From Chiua virens (taxonomy: Eukaryota; Basidiomycota; Agaricomycetes; Boletales; Boletaceae), in assembly GCA_019787685.1 (NCBI GenBank), contig JAHNUO010000004.1, positions 868,001 to 932,000 on the forward strand: a stretch of 64,000 bases of DNA, written 5' to 3'. A program made the position numbers and the translations under genes. Shown here piece after piece: positions 19,054-28,834 of the stretch (the first letter of the stretch is position 1; every line of letters starts with the position of its first letter). The notes below the pieces were generated by a model. It was not told where the DNA came from, ran no database searches, and saw only the letters and a program-made list of their open reading frames with translations.

Positions 19054-19589
19054 GTTCTTGTGGCTGGTAGGGGGCTGACGATTGAGACGGAGATCTAAAT
19101 TTCCCAAACCTTCATCCGCCTCTTGTACATAGGATGATGCCTCCAATTCCAGTTTGTTATCACAATCACAATCAAAGTCGTATTCACATCCACTCCCTTC
19201 TTCTTCAAGCAATCAATTCACTCTCAGATCTTGCACAGATCATGGTCAATTATGTTGGTCAGAATGCACCTCAAGATGCCACTGAGGACGGTGTTGCAGA
19301 GAATCCCCAAGATGCCACAAAATGCCATTGGCGAGTGGTAGAGGTTGAAGCCCTTATCAGGTACTTCCACCAGCACAAGGCTGAGAAGGAGGGATCTTCC
19401 AGCTTCAAGGACGTATCGTTTACTGGAGCTGCCGAGCACCTCCAAGCCTTCCATATTGCAGGTTCAAAGAGAAAGAAGGGCAAGCACATCAAGACAAAGG
19501 TCGATTATTTATTCCATGTTGTACAGCTAGATCTGAGTCATTCAATCCTTGTCCAGCTCAAAGTGCAGTATACAGCTATTGCTAAGTAC

Positions 19590-20021
19590 TGTTACGATAC
19601 CAACTTTTCCTCACTTCTCAACTCCAACGTTCAATCTATTCTAAAGATACACGCCTCATGTCAAGGCTGTCCAAAGGATCATATCCGATTGGCTACCACA
19701 ATAACACAGCATCCATCAACACATGCCTCTTATCTCTTCATTTCCCTTATCACTGACTCATACTCGGCAGTGCAAGGCTATGCTCTTATCTATGACTCAT
19801 ATCTATTCACACCTTATCATCCAATAGGATACGTTATGCTTATCTACGTAGTTCATACTCAGATTAGAACTCCGACATCCATGTAGTATATAAACCCCAT
19901 GAATCACAGCCAGAGAGCTCTAACAAAGTTCTCTTGGAGTTTTTGCCTCTTCACTGGACTGAACCCCCTCTTCACTACACCACTACAACTTTAACAGTCT
20001 AGGTTGTTCTAGGTTGTTTCA
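19590..20021 (+). repeat. 5' LTR
   Basis: 432 bp, TG...CA ends. It contains a TATA box (TATATAAA, 19887-19894) and, 35 bp after its start, AACAAAGTTCT, the probable 5' end of the transcript. Confidence 0.95.
19887..19894 (+). promoter_or_regulatory. LTR TATA box
   Basis: TATATAAA in the 5' LTR. Expected transcription start is 25-35 bp downstream, near 19915-19922, which coincides with the sequence complementary to the primer-binding site. Confidence 0.65.
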
Positions 20022-20023
20022 TT

Positions 20024-20034
20024 AGAACTTTGTT
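20024..20034 (+). promoter_or_regulatory. Candidate self-primer binding site (Tf1-like)
   Basis: AGAACTTTGTT lies two bases after the 5' LTR and is the exact reverse complement of AACAAAGTTCT at 19922-19932, the predicted transcript 5' end. Eleven bases of self-complementarity is the arrangement known for the fission-yeast element Tf1, where the mRNA primes its own reverse transcription. Confidence 0.65.
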
Positions 20035-20255
20035 GTTTATCTTCGCCGTTGATCGACTACTGTCAAGTCACAACCTCGTCGTAGCCCCTACTACAAAATA
20101 ACACAACCGGGCCCAAGTAAGTCCCAAGTTTGAAAAGTAGTTGGAACATTTGCTACCAATAAGCCGAATTGCAAAAGACTCAAGGTCTAGCAATCGCAGA
20201 AGCAAATAGCGCACCCCTTGACCAGAAAGGAGATCTTAACTGACCTGCCCAATCA

Positions 20256-20819
20256 GTGTCGAACCTACCCCTCTCAGCCATCGCAGCAGCCGCTGAGGCT
20301 TACCCTGACCTCGTCGACGAACCCTACGTCTTCGATGCAGCCTATCTCGCAGAAGTTGTCGCTCTCGAGGACCTTGATCCCGAAGACCGCACCGACACCG
20401 AAATCTTCCACACCTTACTAGGCCACTTTCTAGGAGAAACTACTCCTTTATCAGACTACTCTAGTGAACGAGAGTCAACCCGGTCCGACAGCCCGGTACT
20501 TAGGTATCCAACTGAGGAAGTTGAGGTCAAGCGCGAATATTTTCCCGCTCCCATTCCCGAAAGAGAACCATCACCTTTCCCACCAGCTCCTTTGAGAGAA
20601 CCATCGGAGGAAAGTTTAGGAGACCCAAACGACTGGCTCCCACCCAGAGAGATTGAAAGAAGGAACGCCAGGACAGATCTCGAAAGAAAGAGAATCCTGA
20701 GACGATACAAGGCTAATAGAGTACCGACTCGTATACGCCCCTATTCCCAATACGACAACCTCGAATTCCCCTACTTTAGACCTAGGAATACTCTTAGGAT
20801 CCCCTCCAGATTTCTCTAA
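20256..20819 (+). CDS. Retrotransposon leader ORF, acidic and Pro-rich, unknown function
   Basis: 187 codons between the 5' LTR and gag. It begins MSNLPLSAIAAAAEAYP. The N-terminal part is acidic, the middle Pro/Glu-rich (FPAPIPEREPSPFPPAPL), and the end basic (NARTDLERKRILRRYKANR). It has no CCHC or protease motif. Most Ty3/gypsy elements begin with gag directly, so this ORF is extra. It could be an N-terminal part of gag in a related element or an independent protein. The function is unknown. Confidence 0.5.
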   Translation: MSNLPLSAIAAAAEAYPDLVDEPYVFDAAYLAEVVALEDLDPEDRTDTEIFHTLLGHFLGETTPLSDYSSERESTRSDSPVLRYPTEEVEVKREYFPAPIPEREPSPFPPAPLREPSEESLGDPNDWLPPREIERRNARTDLERKRILRRYKANRVPTRIRPYSQYDNLEFPYFRPRNTLRIPSRFL

Positions 20820-20833
20820 ATAGAAAATCTTTT

Positions 20834-21079
20834 ATGTCTTGGGAACTCGTTGCAATCGCACTCATCATCTCCTGCACCCTTACCACATACTTCTTCGGAT
20901 ATATCGCATTCTACCTTACAAACAAGGTACAAGAATCACAAAGACCAATTTACGTTTCTATCAAACGCCGAGACTACCCTTTCGCAGTCACATTCGGTCT
21001 CTTCTCACCCTACGAAGAATACGGTACAGCAACCGCTAACGCTTGGGGAGCACCAGAACCAGCAACTGACGCTTGGTAA
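20834..21079 (+). CDS. Retrotransposon small membrane-spanning ORF
   Basis: 81 codons starting 15 bp after the previous stop and ending 16 bp before gag. It begins MSWELVAIALIISCTLTTYF and continues with a strongly hydrophobic stretch of about 25 residues, then a charged segment (SIKRRDY) and an acidic end. One predicted membrane helix near the N-terminus is the only feature. I know of no standard counterpart in fungal Ty3/gypsy elements. Confidence 0.45.
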   Translation: MSWELVAIALIISCTLTTYFFGYIAFYLTNKVQESQRPIYVSIKRRDYPFAVTFGLFSPYEEYGTATANAWGAPEPATDAW

Positions 21080-21094
21080 ATTACCAAAAACAAT

Positions 21095-22283
21095 ATGGAT
21101 TACCACACCGCGCTCGGAGTTCTGAACGACACCTCTCGCACAAATGGAGATCGGCTACAAGCCGCATTCGTCCTCGTTGCAGAACAAGCTACACTAATCG
21201 GCGCCCTAGAAGGGCAACTCAATGCCTTACCAGTCATACCCCCTCAAGCAGCAGCCTCATCCTCAAAAGTCGAAATCTTCGCAGACCCAGGGTCATATGA
21301 CGGAGAAATGTCCAAATTTGAAGAATGGTGGGCCAAAATGAAAGGATGGCTCGAAGTAAACAATCTCGCCATTCCCAAGGGCTCATACAGGGCCGTACAA
21401 GCCGTACTCTCACGGTTGAAAGGAAAGAAAGCGGCGCAGTTCGCAGAAACTCGCTTAGCTAAAGGATCCGCTCTCACGTGGGCAACATTAGTACAGGACA
21501 TCGAAGGGATGTTCCGGCAAAACAACAAGGTCGATTGGGCTAGATCCCAATTGGAAAAATCTAAGACAAGGAACGATGAGAGTAGAAGACTATATCGTCC
21601 AATGGGAGGCCCTGTGGCTACAAGCACACATTGACCCTACCCATGCGATAAGACTCCTTGAGGCAAACACTGCCCACTCCATCATTTACCAAATCTTCCG
21701 TGACGGACACAGGGTAGACCCCTTCCACACCATGTACACGGACCCAAAACATGCAGAATACGAACCTGACCGCGACCACGCGGTCATCACATACCTCTCC
21801 TGGATCCGAACGGCGGGAAATGCCATGGAAGCACTCAACTACGTGCGACCAGACCGCTATAAAAAGTATAAGGATCCAAATGCTATGGACATTGGCCAAG
21901 CCACTTATGCCGAAAGAGACGAAGATGGTTGGTTCACAGGAAAAGAAGTCAGAGCATTTGGTCAAAAGAAGACCAACAACTCAAATAAATGCTACAACTG
22001 CGGCGGTGCAGGTCACAGAACCAACGATTGCACCAAACCTAAAAACCAATGCAGTGAGTGCAAGTGGTACGGCGGATCCCATAAGACGCAATGTTCGCGC
22101 AAAGTCCGCTCAACAAACAAGGAAGAGAAGAAAACAATATCTTCTACTTCCACCACTTCCCCATCTGTACCGGCTAAAGACCCCTTTGCCGCCATCCGAG
22201 GGATGTCCCCTGAAGAAGTCCAGGCATACTACTTCGACATGTATGAAAACAAAAACGGAAAGGGAAAAGGCAAGGCGAACTGA
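21095..22283 (+). pseudogene. gag: Retrotransposon gag with one internal +1 frameshift
   Basis: Gag forms the particle that packages element RNA. The first part (MDYHTALGVLNDTSR..., 21095) holds the retrotransposon-gag region (FEEWWAKMKGWLEVNN, WARSQLEKSK). The continuation DYIVQWEALWLQAHIDP is in the next frame, and removing one G at about 21565 joins them. The C-terminal part has a zinc knuckle CYNCGGAGHRTNDC (CX2CX4HX4C) near 21990 and a second, irregular one (CSECKWYGGSHKTQC). It ends in a basic Lys-rich tail at TGA 22281-22283. The tail overlaps the start of the pol frame and carries a slippery heptamer. Confidence 0.82.
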
Positions 22284-22306
22284 GTAAACTGGGATCTCAC
22301 GTTCGC
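22262..22306 (+). promoter_or_regulatory. Predicted -1 programmed frameshift signal between gag and pol
   Basis: The heptamer G GGA AAA (22262-22268) is in the correct phase of the gag frame. After a 6-nt spacer comes a stem: GCGAACTGAG (22275-22284) pairs with CTCA (22296-22299) plus GTTCGC (22301-22306), with one bulged C and an 11-nt loop. The pol frame is open from 22247 and lies -1 to gag. Confidence 0.75.
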
Positions 22307-22471
22307 GCCACCCTTCCTAAAGAATATGAAAACTCTGTATCATTAAAATTCGATTTCAAATACTCCGAAATACCTCCCTGGCAAGAGGATAAACTACCTA
22401 AATCACCAAAAACAACAGAAAACGAAAGCGTTGACAGCGTCTCTGCGGAGCGCGGCAGACACGATAGTTCC

Positions 22472-25400
22472 GTGCTTAATTCTGTCCCAAAACAAATCCC
22501 CGATGGGTCTTTCATTAGATCTACATCGGTAGAAAAAGAAATAGTATTACCAATTTTGGTATCCCCAGTAAACCAAATTGGCTATGTTGGAGCAAAAGCA
22601 CTTCTTGATAGTGGAGCTAATGCGATCTTCATACACGAAGATTATGTCGCTAAAAATAAACTCCCTACACATGCGCTTCCTCATCCAATCCAAGTATTCA
22701 ACGTGGACGGTACAAAAAACCAAGCAGGCTCAATAACTCACGCCACACAAATTTTGATCGATTACAAAGGTCACAGGGAAATAGTGGATGCTGAAATTAC
22801 CAACCTTGGAAAGAATGATCTTATCCTCGGATTCACATGGTTAAAGCACCACAACCCCCATATAGACTGGTCGACTGGAAACGTAACGATGAGAAGATGC
22901 CCAGAGTCATGCCATTCACAAGATGAAGACGACTTCTTGGATTCCATTATTGCAGAAGAACTTAAATATGCAAACTCTATCGCGGAATCTCGTATTTTTA
23001 CCGCAAACATGGAAACTCCACCTTCTCCTCCTAAGGAACGCACTCTTGAAGAGATGGTCCCACGAGAATATTTAAAATATGCTAAAGTATTTGGAAAGAC
23101 AGAGTCCGAAAGAATACCATTATGCAAACCATGGGATCACCACATTGACCTAAAAGAGTCTTTCGTTCCCAAGAAGGGTTGCTTAATACCCCTCTCTGTC
23201 ACAGAACAAGAGGAGGTCTCCGCATTTATTGATGACCAATTAAAGAAAGGTTACATCAGACCCTCTAAGTCCGAACAGACATCTCTGGTCTTCTTTGTCC
23301 CAAAGAAAGATGGAAAGAAGCGTATGGTCCAAGACTACCGATACCTAAACGAACATACAACTAAAAATAACTACCCCTTGCCGCTTATATCGCAGCTTGT
23401 GGATAAATTAAAAGACGCTAAGCTTTTTACAAAAATGGATCTCCGATGGGGATACAATAACGTACGCATCAAAGAAGGCGATGAATGGAAGGCAGCATTT
23501 GTCTGTCACCGCGGTTCTTTCGAACCCATTGTCATGTACTTTGGATTATGTAACTCACCAGCAACGTTTCAAACTATGATGAACGAAATCTTTGCCGATA
23601 TGAATGGCGTCGTTGTCGTTTACATCGATGACCTTATGATCTTTACAGATACTGATGATTATGAAACTCATGACAAAATCGTACTCGAAGTGCTTAAACG
23701 CCTCGAAGAAAACGATCTATACGTAAAACCAGAAAAATGCTTCTTCCGCGTAAAAGAAGTGGATTTCCTCGGAATGATCGTGGGAACTGATGGAATAAAA
23801 ATGGATAATGAGAAAACCAAGGCGGTCGCTGAATGGCCTACTCCCACCTCAGTCAAACACATCAGAAGTTTCCTCGGACTTGCCAACTTCTATCGAAGAT
23901 TCATTAAAGATTATGGAAAAATAGCACGACCTTTACATGACCTCACTAAAAAGGATCAAAAATTTGAATGGACATTCGCTTGTGACGAAGCATTCACTAT
24001 GCTTAAAAAGGCTTTTACGACAGCCCCTATCCTAGCTTATCCGGATCAGGATTCAAAATATCGCTTAGAATGCAATTCATCGGATTTCGCTACAGGAGCA
24101 GTTCTCTCTTTAGAAAAAGAAGGACTTTGGCACCCGGTCGCTTACAATAGCCACTCTATGACACCAGAAGAACGAAATTACCCAATAGCTGATAAAGAAA
24201 TGCTCTCGGTTATCCGTTCTCTCGAACTATGGCGCCACTACTTAGAGGGTGCAAAACACGAATTTGAAATATGGAATGACCACCAGAACCTTATGTGGTT
24301 TATGACACGCCAAGATCTTAACCGAAGACAAGCACGATGGGCTCAATATCTCTCACGCTTTAACTTCACTTGGCACCACAAGGCTGGAGTCACTATGGGA
24401 AAAGCAGATGCTTTAAGCAGACGAGAAGATCACATGATCGGAATCGAGGATGATAACAAAGGAATCCTTCTCATGGATCCATCCAAGATCAGATCAGCCG
24501 TCACTCTCCTATACAATGGTGATCAATTCTTATCTGACGTACAACATGAAACTATGAAACTATCACCTAATGCCATGAAACACTTACTTTCTATCGGATA
24601 CAAAGTCGAGGACGCCTTCCTTAGAAAGGGGGATAGGATCTTCATTCCGGATGCTTTACGCACCAAATCCATTACCATGTTTCATGACACACCGGAAGCA
24701 GGACACCCCGGTTATGACAAAACTTTAGAACTTTTATCTCGAACCTACATTTGGCCTCGAATGAATGAAGAAGTCAAAAATTATGTCTCACACTGTGAAA
24801 GATGCGCTCGTTTCAAGGGTTCTAATCAGAAAACAGCAGGACTCCTGCAACCCCTAGAAACACCGTCATTACCATGGGAAGATATCTCAGCAGATTTCAT
24901 TACAGATCTCCCACTTTCACACTCCTATGATTCCATTCTCACAGTTGTGGATCGATTCTCCAAAGAAGTCGAATTCATCCCCTGCCACAAAATGTGTACA
25001 TCTATGGATCTCGCTAAACTATATCTCTCACACATATGGAAACATCATGGCCTCCCTAAAACCATCATTTCGGATAGAGGACCACAATTCGCTTCCCAAC
25101 TTATGAAAGATATATGCTCAGGGTTAAAAATAACACCCAAATTAAGCACCGCACACCATCCACAAACAGACGGACAATCGGAACGAATGAACCGAGAAGT
25201 GCAACAGTACCTTCGCATGTTCTGTGCTGAGAAAGATAACACATGGGTCGATTGGCTCCCTCTCGCACAATTCTCGTACAACAGCAAGAAACACACTGCC
25301 ACTAAATTCTCACCATTCGAAATCACACGTTCCTACATCCCCAGGATGGGAATTATGCCACAATCCATGAAAAACCCGGCTGCTCAGAACTTCATCACGG

Positions 25401-26125
25401 ATTTCTCCGAAGTTCTAGAACAAACCAAATCTAACATAGATAAAGCCGCGGAAAATATGAAAAACATCGCAGATAGATCGAGAACAGAACCTCCCTCCTA
25501 TTCTATTGGAGATAAGATCTGGCTCTCTACAGCGAATCTAAAAATAAAACAACACCCAAAATTCATGGATAAATGGATTGGCCCATATGACATAATCTCT
25601 ATGCACGGCCCGAATGCTCTAAAGCTTAAACTCCCACGCACTATGCGAATACACCCAGTTGTAAACATTTCTCAGGTTAAACCTTATAAGGAACATCTAC
25701 CAAAACAGCCAGTATACAAACCGCGACCTGTCGTAATCGGAGATGACCAAGAAGAAGAATTCGAAGCAGACTATATTGTCGACTCCCGAATGAAAGGACG
25801 ATGCTTAGAATATCTCATACACTGGAAAGGTTATGACGATGACGAAAGAACTTGGGAACCCCTAAAGAATCTGAAAAATGCACCGGATCTCATATCAGAT
25901 TTCCACGAAGCACATCCAGATGCCCCAAGAAAACTAAAAGTCACACAAACCGAATTTAACTCCATGTTCCGAACCTATGACAATAAAACTTCACACGAAG
26001 ATGAGGATAGTCTCCATCGTCTCAATTATGAAATAGATCATCCGGAGTCTGATCAACAGAAGGGGGATAGTGTTACGATACCAACTTTTCCTCACTTCTC
26101 AACTCCAACGTTCAATCTATTCTAA
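22472..26125 (+). CDS. pol: Retrotransposon Pol polyprotein (PR-RT-RH-IN-chromodomain)
   Basis: The first ATG is at 22472, but the frame is open from 22247 and is probably entered by -1 frameshifting. Domains in order from 22472: aspartic protease DSGANAIFI (about residue 47); reverse transcriptase with YIDD (about 383); RNase H, where the first catalytic Asp of the usual TDAS motif is Asn (ECNSSDFATG, residue 535); integrase with an HHCC finger near 736-775 (HCERC) and the D,D(35)E triad (ADFITD, ISDRGPQF, QSE); chromodomain near 1097-1150 (YLIHWKGYDDDERTWEPL). The ORF runs 55 bp into the 3' LTR. There are no internal stops. Confidence 0.95.
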   Translation: MLNSVPKQIPDGSFIRSTSVEKEIVLPILVSPVNQIGYVGAKALLDSGANAIFIHEDYVAKNKLPTHALPHPIQVFNVDGTKNQAGSITHATQILIDYKGHREIVDAEITNLGKNDLILGFTWLKHHNPHIDWSTGNVTMRRCPESCHSQDEDDFLDSIIAEELKYANSIAESRIFTANMETPPSPPKERTLEEMVPREYLKYAKVFGKTESERIPLCKPWDHHIDLKESFVPKKGCLIPLSVTEQEEVSAFIDDQLKKGYIRPSKSEQTSLVFFVPKKDGKKRMVQDYRYLNEHTTKNNYPLPLISQLVDKLKDAKLFTKMDLRWGYNNVRIKEGDEWKAAFVCHRGSFEPIVMYFGLCNSPATFQTMMNEIFADMNGVVVVYIDDLMIFTDTDDYETHDKIVLEVLKRLEENDLYVKPEKCFFRVKEVDFLGMIVGTDGIKMDNEKTKAVAEWPTPTSVKHIRSFLGLANFYRRFIKDYGKIARPLHDLTKKDQKFEWTFACDEAFTMLKKAFTTAPILAYPDQDSKYRLECNSSDFATGAVLSLEKEGLWHPVAYNSHSMTPEERNYPIADKEMLSVIRSLELWRHYLEGAKHEFEIWNDHQNLMWFMTRQDLNRRQARWAQYLSRFNFTWHHKAGVTMGKADALSRREDHMIGIEDDNKGILLMDPSKIRSAVTLLYNGDQFLSDVQHETMKLSPNAMKHLLSIGYKVEDAFLRKGDRIFIPDALRTKSITMFHDTPEAGHPGYDKTLELLSRTYIWPRMNEEVKNYVSHCERCARFKGSNQKTAGLLQPLETPSLPWEDISADFITDLPLSHSYDSILTVVDRFSKEVEFIPCHKMCTSMDLAKLYLSHIWKHHGLPKTIISDRGPQFASQLMKDICSGLKITPKLSTAHHPQTDGQSERMNREVQQYLRMFCAEKDNTWVDWLPLAQFSYNSKKHTATKFSPFEITRSYIPRMGIMPQSMKNPAAQNFITDFSEVLEQTKSNIDKAAENMKNIADRSRTEPPSYSIGDKIWLSTANLKIKQHPKFMDKWIGPYDIISMHGPNALKLKLPRTMRIHPVVNISQVKPYKEHLPKQPVYKPRPVVIGDDQEEEFEADYIVDSRMKGRCLEYLIHWKGYDDDERTWEPLKNLKNAPDLISDFHEAHPDAPRKLKVTQTEFNSMFRTYDNKTSHEDEDSLHRLNYEIDHPESDQQKGDSVTIPTFPHFSTPTFNLF
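26058..26070 (+). promoter_or_regulatory. Polypurine tract
   Basis: AGAAGGGGGATAG lies directly before the 3' LTR, the expected position of the plus-strand primer. It also lies inside the pol reading frame. Confidence 0.75.
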
Positions 26126-26502
26126 AGATACACGCCTCATGTCAAGGCTGTCCAAAGGATCATATCCGATTGGCTACCACAATAACACAGCATCCATCAA
26201 CACATGCCTCTTATCTCTTCATTTCCCTTATCACTGACTCATACTCGGCAGTGCAAGGCTATGCTCTTATCTATGACTCATATCTATTCACACCTTATCA
26301 TCCAATAGGATACGTTATGCTTATCTACGTAGTTCATACTCAGATTAGAACTCCGACATCCATGTAGTATATAAACCCCATGAATCACAGCCAGAGAGCT
26401 CTAACAAAGTTCTCTTGGAGTTTTTGCCTCTTCACTGGACTGAACCCCCTCTTCACTACACCACTACAACTTTAACAGTCTAGGTTGTTCTAGGTTGTTT
26501 CA
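26071..26502 (+). repeat. 3' LTR
   Basis: 432 bp, visually identical to the 5' LTR, followed by AGTAC. Confidence 0.95.
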
Positions 26503-27510
26503 AGTACTGTCACAAATCCGGCTTCAGCTGGGACAACGTCTGTGGAGCAAATATTCAGGGGAAGGAAGCCGAAAAGGTTTGGAAGGAGTATATTTCACAG
26601 AACTGGGTATGGTATTCTTTCGCATCATGATTGTACACTGTGACACCAATTTAACTGATCTCTGTTTTACTGTAGTCCAATGCCGCAGTGAAGCCTTTCA
26701 AGAAGAAAAGTTTCCCCTTGCTCAACCTCATGGAAGAGATCTATCCCGAGGAGGTAATAGCTAGAGGGGAGAATGTATTCCACCCGGGCCAAGATAGTGC
26801 AGCACTGCAACTTCCTGGTGGCGTTACCGCCACAACTTGCGGTATGATGTCGTCCAACACTGGACTCGGAGGTCCGAGTCCCATCATGATGGATGTATCT
26901 GCTCCGGCATCGCCTGCCCCCCTCAGTTCTACTCATTCCACTTGCAACAAACGCCCTCTTTCCACGGTCTCCCCAGATTCTATCACCTCTCCCTCACTCC
27001 TGTTTTCCCCACCAGCACCGGCATCTGTTTCAACGTACTCCATCAACCCACCCTCCACAGTTTCAAGGAGCTCCAAGCGAAGCTGCCTCTCTGCTGGAGG
27101 CAGAGACAATAACCTGAACAGGATGCTAGACGTACCATCAATCACTATGGTGACAAGCTCAATCGCCAACCTCACCGACGCTGTCTGGTCCTCATTTTGT
27201 GACAAGCTAACCGTGATTGCTCAGGCCACGCAACAATTGTACTCCCTTGAGCCGGCACCTTCTCCTGAACAAATCCTCACCATTGGGGAATACTTTGCTG
27301 AGCCTGAGAATGAAGGGAAAGCACAGCTTTTTTTGAATTTCCAAGCAGCACAGCGTGTGGCTTATGCCAAGAAGCTTTCTGTCATGCTAGGTGTGTTGTC
27401 CAATTAGAGCTTGAGTGGGATTCAAGTTGGGTGGAAATCCATCTGTATCACAGTAGTCTGTCATGTTTTCCTAATCGAATTGATTGGTCACTACAATTTG
27501 AATAATTGTG

Positions 27511-28834
27511 CTACAACAGATCAAGCTCGTCTAAAAGATCGTTGGTAACGTCCAAGTCTGCATCTGAGTCCTCAGCCCGCCCGTGGTGCTCCCCACGTTG
27601 CATCAAAATCCTCTGGTAATCCTCCCACATTGCCTGGGCAATGTTGTCGCGCATCCATCGAGCCGTCACATCATCAGCGGCATCGCAGTCTTGATCAATG
27701 GCAGCATGTTCCTGCCTACCATTACCTTGACCATTATTATCATTGTCATCTGATTTGGAGTCCAAGTCCAAATCCTCAGTGGTGTGATCGTTGAGATCAT
27801 GGGAACGGATGAAGTTGTGCAGGGCACATAGCATGGCAGGGATTCTCACTTGAAATTTGATAGGAAACTCCATTGGGAGATGGAGGATTCGGAACTACCA
27901 CTTGAGGACTCCAAAGATACATTCAATCACGTTTCTGGCAAACGCATGCCGCAGGTTGAACAATTCTTCTTTGTTTGATGGGCTAGTTCAAGTAGTTAGT
28001 AAAAAAATTATTTCGGACATCCAATAATTGAACAAGGCAGACTTACCAGACACTTGCGCAACCCCACTCAGCAAGGTGGTAACACACCCCATGGTATGGC
28101 ATGAGGAGTTGCTTGCAGAGGGGATACCCTGTGTCTGCGAGAAGGTATTTCCCATGTGGGAGCTCAAGGTCGGAGGTGATCGCATCCTCGTACACCCGGG
28201 CATCAGTAGCTGAGCCCTCCCACCCCAATAACACATACATAAAATTCATGTTGAAGTCACAGATGAAAAGACCGTTTTGCGAGAGGAAACCCTTGCGATT
28301 CCAATAGTTTGAGCAAACAAGGGACGTTGGTCTGATGGGGAGATGACTACTGTCAATTGCACCGATTGTGTTGTGGAAGTACAGGAAAAACTTTGGGTTG
28401 CGAAGGATCTTCAAAGGGGTATTTGTGCCAGGTGGAAACGAGACGTATGTTGAATAAAATCGTCAGCTTGAGAGCGCTTCAATGATCCGCTTGAAGTACC
28501 TAGCATAATCGTATAATGAACTAGAAATAAACGCAGGAATGATCACTTACACAGTTATTGTGCTGTTTGAACATTGAAATCGCTCGCCAACGTGACGAAT
28601 GGAGAGGCCAGTAACACACATGTAGAGGGTGATGGCAACTTGCTCTTCTAGTTTGACAGATCTTGAATCAGGAAGGCCTTGAGCTCGGAGTTCAGAGACC
28701 AACTGGAGGAAGACTTCTTTATGAACCCCGAGTTCACACCGGATGCAATCAGGGTGACCAGTGATGAGTTCATTGACCCATGCGCGTCCAGTGAGAGCTG
28801 AGGTGTGATAAGGGATCGGGAGCCTGTGGGGCAA
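27511..28834 (-). pseudogene. Harbinger DDE transposase with one nonsense codon
   Basis: The transposase of the Harbinger element. The N-terminal exon (from 28834) contains LEEQVAITLYMCVTGLSIRH and VGERFQCSNSTI, the helix-turn-helix region. The catalytic exon has GAIDSSHLPI (first Asp) and LLADTGYPL (second Asp). After an intron NVIECIFGVLKW supplies the Glu. The next codon is TAG (27895-27897), then FRILHLPMEFP and a C-terminus rich in Asp ending DLLDELDLL. The order matches the DDE_4 family. The single stop just after the last catalytic residue would remove the C-terminal part, so the gene is probably inactive. Confidence 0.85.

Follow-up and report, generated by a model that had tools for sequence, protein, structure and literature searches.

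The gag-pol junction of an LTR retrotransposon in Chiua virens is read here as a programmed −1 ribosomal frameshift site, an interpretation of its sequence to which a probability of about 0.88 is given. The canonical components of such a site occur together: a phased X XXY YYZ heptamer is followed by a short spacer and a structure, and the −1 reading frame is open across the heptamer. This cassette, including its phase, is conserved among copies of the element, and its stem covaries across three families. The copy under study lies in a window of 64,000 nucleotides, the whole stretch of DNA analysed, to which all coordinates refer.

The Retrotransposon and Its Surroundings

The element spans positions 19590-26502 (Table 1), and many copies of it are present in the 48.3 Mb genome. 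The order of the domains in pol, with the chromodomain after the integrase, is as in a Tf1/sushi chromovirus, and an 11-nt segment of the LTR complements the putative primer-binding site, a match whose chance level is 2 in 2000 shuffled 40-mers. This domain order and the predicted self-priming match suggest a Tf1/sushi chromovirus. Among the 120 protein relatives listed of 1216, those with named organisms come from Pisolithus, Lyophyllum, Agaricus, Phellinidium, and Pleurotus, genera of Agaricomycetes, and one is filed under Neobacillus.

Table 1. Features of the retrotransposon and of its gag-pol junction in the window.
Feature	Position	Strand	Remark
Target-site duplication AGTAC	19585..19589	.	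Other copy 26503-26507
5′ LTR	19590..20021	+	432 bp, identical to 3′ LTR
Putative self-primer AACAAAGTTCT	19922..19932	+	Complement of primer-binding site
Putative primer-binding site	20024..20034	+	11-nt complement of LTR self-primer (Tf1/sushi type)
gag, N-terminal part	21095..21634	+	ATG frame ends at 21634 in window copy
gag, C-terminal part	21492..22283	+	CCHC zinc knuckle; frame differs from that of the ATG in window copy
pol ORF	22247..26125	+	−1 to gag; protease, reverse transcriptase, RNase H, integrase, chromodomain
Putative slippery heptamer G GGA AAA	22262..22268	+	In gag phase
Spacer GGCAAG	22269..22274	+	6 nt
5′ arm GCGAACTGAG of putative stimulatory hairpin	22275..22284	+	
gag stop codon TGA	22281..22283	+	Within 5′ arm
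Loop TAAACTGGGAT	22285..22295	+	11 nt; core CTGGG common to three families
3′ arm CTCACGTTCGC of hairpin	22296..22306	+	Bulged C at 22300
Polypurine tract AGAAGGGGGATAG	26058..26070	+	Before 3′ LTR; read by eye
3′ LTR	26071..26502	+	432 bp

Open reading frames adjoin both edges of the insertion (19086-19589 and 26503-27407), and the insertion may therefore have split a gene-like stretch; the pieces tested have no Pfam match. Two further reading frames without a Pfam match, 20244-20819 (191 aa) and 20798-21079 (93 aa), lie between the 5′ LTR and gag. The shorter was considered as a conserved gene and set aside: over the part that the copies cover, it is open in 16 of 40 and variable at all codon positions, and is thus probably no conserved gene. 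Beyond the element, a DDE_Tnp_4 transposase fragment (Pfam E 2.8e-11), perhaps from a HARBI-like DNA transposon, is found on the minus strand at 28046-28462.

Anatomy of the Junction

In the window copy the gag codons run into the stop as GAA AAC AAA AAC GGA AAG GGA AAA GGC AAG GCG AAC TGA. A sequence-only reading had proposed that G GGA AAA stands in the phase required for slippage, that a hairpin with one bulge and an 11-nt loop begins six bases later and holds the gag stop, and that pol lies −1 to gag and is open from 22247. Direct reading of the codons confirms all of this. The stem consists of 10 bp and the single bulged C, and the pol frame follows a −1-frame TGA at 22244-22246. The first ATG of the pol frame had been placed at 22472, where the codon is in fact GTG; it lies at 22889, 3′ of the protease motif DSGA (22607), a position that makes initiation of a complete Pol at an internal ATG unlikely.

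The predicted stability of the 39-nt hairpin is modest (−12.8 kcal/mol, z −2.5), and 5 of 200 shuffled sequences fold equally well. Pairing of the heptamer with a downstream UUCC, suggested by a fold of the window, was rejected because UUCC is by eye missing after the stem of the third family described below. The slippery heptamer is overlapped by another one in phase, A AAG GGA (22259-22265), which is present in 39 of 40 copies; as a shared slippery site it was discarded, being absent by eye from the other subfamily and from both other families. In the 14,920 gag codons of these 40 copies there are 125 phased XXXYYYZ heptamers, of which 79 are the two at the junction. This frequency shows that the site exceeds chance, and the real test is conservation and covariation.

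The window copy had also been described as carrying a complete cassette, which holds for the cassette itself and fails for the gene leading into it. Its gag shifts frame upstream: the frame of the ATG stops at 21634, zinc knuckle and heptamer belong to another that is open from 21492, and the heptamer is not in frame with the ATG. Gag-Pol from its own ATG should therefore not be made by this copy. The frame change (21492-21634) is present despite identical LTRs. The gag gene is open from ATG to heptamer in 27 of 40 copies and not in the other 13, which include the window copy and 12 of the 39 others.

Conservation Among Copies of the Element

Related copies, here called family 1, were collected in two ways. 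A DNA search with a 401-base query yielded 157 candidates, of which the best 40 were scored. As this query contained the junction, a second set was drawn by the reverse transcriptase alone (the 30 best loci, from 89 scored of 727 candidates). The merged set comprises 59 distinct copies, which are the best-scoring ones and not a random sample. Rows left out include L080, whose stretch begins just past a listed cassette, and L085, in which a cassette is not recognisable.

In all of the best 40 of the 157 DNA-selected candidates GGGAAAA stands in phase with a TGA 19 nt on. Among the loci selected by reverse transcriptase, the block beginning with the heptamer and the TGA are found in 30 of 30, and the exact heptamer in 29, one heptamer base being lost in L072. 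The sequence-only reading had asked whether heptamer, spacer, and stem are conserved among related copies, and this is borne out in the merged set, with the heptamer in 56 of 59 (the exceptions being L072, L081, and L083), the spacer GGCAAG in 57, and all ten stem pairs possible in 52 when wobble pairs are allowed. The TGA is kept in 58, and the loop is TAAACTGGGAT in 55 and AAAACTGGGAT in 4. Five copies (L018, L022, L030, L069, and L071) fall one stem pair short, L081 two, and L084 three, while in L045 and L082 a C-G pair has become U-A through alteration of both sides.

The −1 frame contains no stop within the block in any of the 59 copies. In 44 of 59 the closest stop of this frame on the 5′ side is 6-24 nt away from the heptamer, so that a shift would have to take place at the junction; in L072 the upstream frame count is out of register owing to the lost heptamer base. 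An in-frame fusion of gag and pol, which had been named as evidence against frameshifting, was looked for and found in 0 of 59 copies. L081 is the sole copy whose gag continues beyond the heptamer for over 60 nt; it meets a TAA 82 nt on and has stops in its reverse transcriptase region.

Diversity averages 0.022 in the block, compared with 0.22 over the 600 nt upstream of it and 0.146 over the following 105 nt. The lowest value among 1215 windows of 45 nt, 0.020, belongs to the one starting 2 nt ahead of the heptamer. Another, separate window, at +211, is nearly as low (0.029), so that low diversity alone is no proof. Two frames are coding over 22262-22283, the initial 22 nt of the block. Between the gag stop and the end of the stem, third positions of pol have a diversity of 0.028 (n = 8), vs. 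0.212 downstream (n = 151; p = 0.002). A genome-wide pattern search gave 128 matches, at least 5 of them belonging to a second family, vs. 0 in a reversed control; the pattern was built after the families had been seen and the count is thus not blind.

Two Further Families and Covariation of the Stem

Family 2 (L078/L079) shares 77 and 76% identity with the query across the reverse transcriptase region. Its gag ends in AAG GGA AAA GCC AGA GCA GTT TGA, and its pol is again −1. In family 3 (L088/L089) gag ends in AAG GGA AAA GGC CGT GCT GCA TGA. The contigs of family 3 are labelled Neobacillus and Shewanella; their record coverage of 0.52 and 0.34 and their eukaryotic content indicate that they are likely fungal contamination of bacterial assemblies. 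Heptamer, phase, 6-nt spacer, a stop in the 5′ arm, and a −1 pol are common to all three families.

The stems themselves have diverged. Between family 1 and family 2, as well as between family 1 and family 3 (represented by L089), five of the ten pairs carry substitutions on both sides, and single-sided changes are absent. The compensatory changes that the sequence-only reading had asked for are therefore present, the stems of families 2 and 3 being rebuilt by paired substitutions. Families 2 and 3 differ from each other by two stem pairs changed on both sides and one changed on one side, and within family 3 a change between U.G and U-A at one pair separates L088 from L089. If the arms are swapped between families, 6-8 of the 10 pairs form. 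When three sequences only are used, a weaker shuffle control, the covariation score is reached by 17 of 500 shuffles.

A larger alignment (17 model-aligned rows, 15 of them distinct) was fitted to the structure, and its pair counts are accordingly flattered; L083 and three antisense matches fell below the cut and were excluded. In this alignment 92.4% of cells are paired, vs. 13-46% for slid partners, and double changes occur in 7 of 11 pairs, the eleventh pair being absent in 9 of the 15 rows. Of 500 shuffles, none reaches the real covariation score, 6 reach the number of double-changed pairs, and 15 the number of pair types. A cleaner test than these counts is a covariance model built from families 2 and 3 with family 1 held out, although its score includes sequence likeness. 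The sole significant match of this model in the 64-kb window is 22262-22306 (32.7 bits, E 1.5e-6), the next match having an E of 0.78.

No relatives were found in viral contigs in two scans or in genome contigs in a first scan, and Rfam returned a chance-level match only, far below its threshold. Three more distant Ty3 contigs (L090-L092) all have pol in −1. One has a phased CCCAAAA, another a GGAAAAC, and the third no such site; the two candidate heptamers, different from that of the three families, lie near 1476 in L091 and near 1444 in L092, both filed as cyanobacterial.

At the protein level, the gag C-terminus reads G-K-x-x-A-x in 10 of 10 aligned rows. Among the 120 gag relatives listed, out of 141, G-K is followed by four final residues in 54; discounting six with a tail such as KGKAPPP elsewhere in the protein, plus P0224, leaves 47. 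One of the two G-K residues is changed in P0139, P0141, and P0145 of the same 120, and P0149 and P0169 read on past the place of the stop. In nine of the 120 the last G-K is one residue from the end, so this C-terminal layout is not universal; the rest are cut, different, or distant. These relatives were compared as proteins only, from which the heptamer is not readable.

Constancy of the Loop

The loop core CUGGG is invariant across the three families while the stem below it differs. In Pol these letters code for Leu-Gly in all three, with CTG as the Leu codon in each. This coding may explain part of the constancy; it hardly accounts for the shared CTG codon and for the frozen silent positions in family 1. 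The loop could itself be a working part, making a kissing contact or one with ribosomal RNA or a protein that tunes the shift. We regard this as unlikely, given that the same letters encode a Leu-Gly kept in Pol and that matching and duplex energy revealed no consistent partner. Perhaps, alongside this reading of the loop, the GGGAAA core has a common ancestry throughout the Tf1/sushi group, extending to PEG10.

Partners for the loop were sought within 300 nt. Duplexes as good as the best one arise in 26 of 300 shuffles for family 1, in 4 of 300 for family 2, and in 104-145 of 300 for family 3, and the best partners sit at differing places between families. Family 1 has a 6-bp partner, CCCAGT, once in each of 59 copies and near +257 in 57 of them; the partner in family 2 comprises 8 bp and lies 113 nt beyond the stem; for family 3, matching and duplex energy gave no convincing partner. 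Since the candidates are inconsistent across the three families, a pseudoknot or kissing interaction is not claimed.

Proposed Mechanism and Alternatives

From this arrangement we infer slippage at the heptamer, an efficiency that would leave Gag as the main product, and a stimulatory role for the hairpin. The ribosome would encounter the hairpin, 6 nt downstream, when GGA occupies its P site and AAA its A site. Both tRNAs would then move back by one base, from GGA to GGG and from AAA to AAA, and the genetic code suggests that pairing after the shift would be good at both codons. A minority of ribosomes would thereby pass the gag TGA and produce Gag-Pol, with the predicted junction ...NGKGK-RQGELSKLGSH..., while the majority would produce Gag.

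A different route to Pol would be coupled termination and re-initiation, in which ribosomes stop at the gag TGA and restart at an overlapping NUG in the −1 frame. Such stop-restart is reported for victoriviruses. Family 3 offers a suitable AUGA, where an ATG in the pol frame overlaps the gag stop. However, this start is not shared, the corresponding letters being CUGA in family 1 and UUGA in family 2, and any TGA yields an NTG in the −1 frame. Stop-restart also leaves unexplained why the heptamer is fixed and in phase, why the spacer is always 6 nt, and why the −1 frame is free of stops from heptamer to TGA; it is judged improbable.

Splicing out of the junction as an intron, with gag and pol thereby brought into one frame, is still less probable. 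A donor-like GTRNGN site is present at −21 in 43 of 59 family 1 copies, YAG sites are common downstream, and by arithmetic some of these pairs would preserve the frame. The same site is missing in the other 16 copies and is not at the same place in families 2 and 3, and splicing would delete the heptamer and stem rather than conserve them. In passages of PMC10085805, an annotated intron in Tcn1 is called wrong, presumably arising from programmed frameshifting; gene models across such junctions may thus carry a wrong intron, a point of relevance to annotation.

An equally slight chance is given to the view that conservation reflects overlapping coding and recent shared descent, with an incidental hairpin. 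The dual reading of 22262-22283 and the similarity of the copies (92-100% over the 401-base query) are what this view would predict, but it does not extend to the pol third positions that follow the gag stop, which are nearly frozen, or to the differing stems that still pair across families through double changes in 5 of 10 pairs. Lastly, transcriptional slippage at the run of four A, giving mixed mRNAs, has a negligible probability, as the run is short and such slippage requires neither phase, spacer, nor stem. Programmed −1 frameshifting is therefore retained as the preferred reading.

Comparison with Known Systems

The sequence-only reading held that this heptamer, in a fungal chromodomain element with a stop-containing hairpin, might not have been described before. 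Among the titles and abstracts listed, no description of a GGGAAAA cassette with its stop in the stem was found. The claim of novelty is weak all the same, since −1 frameshifting is already reported as predominant for Tf1/sushi elements outside fission yeasts: passages of PMC10085805, citing Gao et al. (2003), state that most of these use programmed −1 frameshifting. The same passages name grasshopper as a −1 element, place MAGGY, marY1, Tcn1, and sushi-ichi in the same tree, and describe self-priming by an LTR complement as common to Tf1/sushi chromoviruses. The kind of mechanism is thus known, and the cassette is a well-supported further example rather than a new mechanism. What is added here is a stem that covaries among three families and a CUGGG loop core that does not vary. 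Together with its two related families, the cassette forms a natural test set for the control of the Gag to Gag-Pol ratio by stem, spacer, and loop.

Like Tf1/sushi chromoviruses, the element is a chromodomain-bearing Ty3 element with a CCHC gag, a −1 pol, and an LTR complement of the primer-binding site. Its 5-bp target-site duplication is as reported for grasshopper and Tcry1 (PMC10085805, in part). This likeness to named elements concerns general organisation, by description. Alongside mention of frameshifting and slippery sites, GGGAAAA occurs in two of the papers searched, a polerovirus prediction and a phage note.

PEG10, a domesticated gene related to sushi-ichi, shifts by −1 at GGGAAAC (excerpt of PMC10570562), and its stimulator is described as a pseudoknot (excerpt of PMC5009743). 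It shares the GGGAAA-type heptamer with the element described here, but differs in its last base, C, and in having a pseudoknot where a simple bulged hairpin follows GGGAAAA. Sireviruses are copia-type elements. Their gag-pol junction has a conserved motif and a possible 11-bp stem with covariant nucleotides, according to the portion of PMC5009743 that treats them; the covarying stem is thus similar, but pol is in +1 and the loop has 4 nt. The same source, a 2016 review, gives a −1 pol for 28 of 51 animal elements in a 2003 survey and a more mixed use of +1 and −1 in fungi. Ty3 of Saccharomyces cerevisiae also makes its Gag-Pol by ribosomal frameshifting, but in the +1 direction (PMC5009743, in part).
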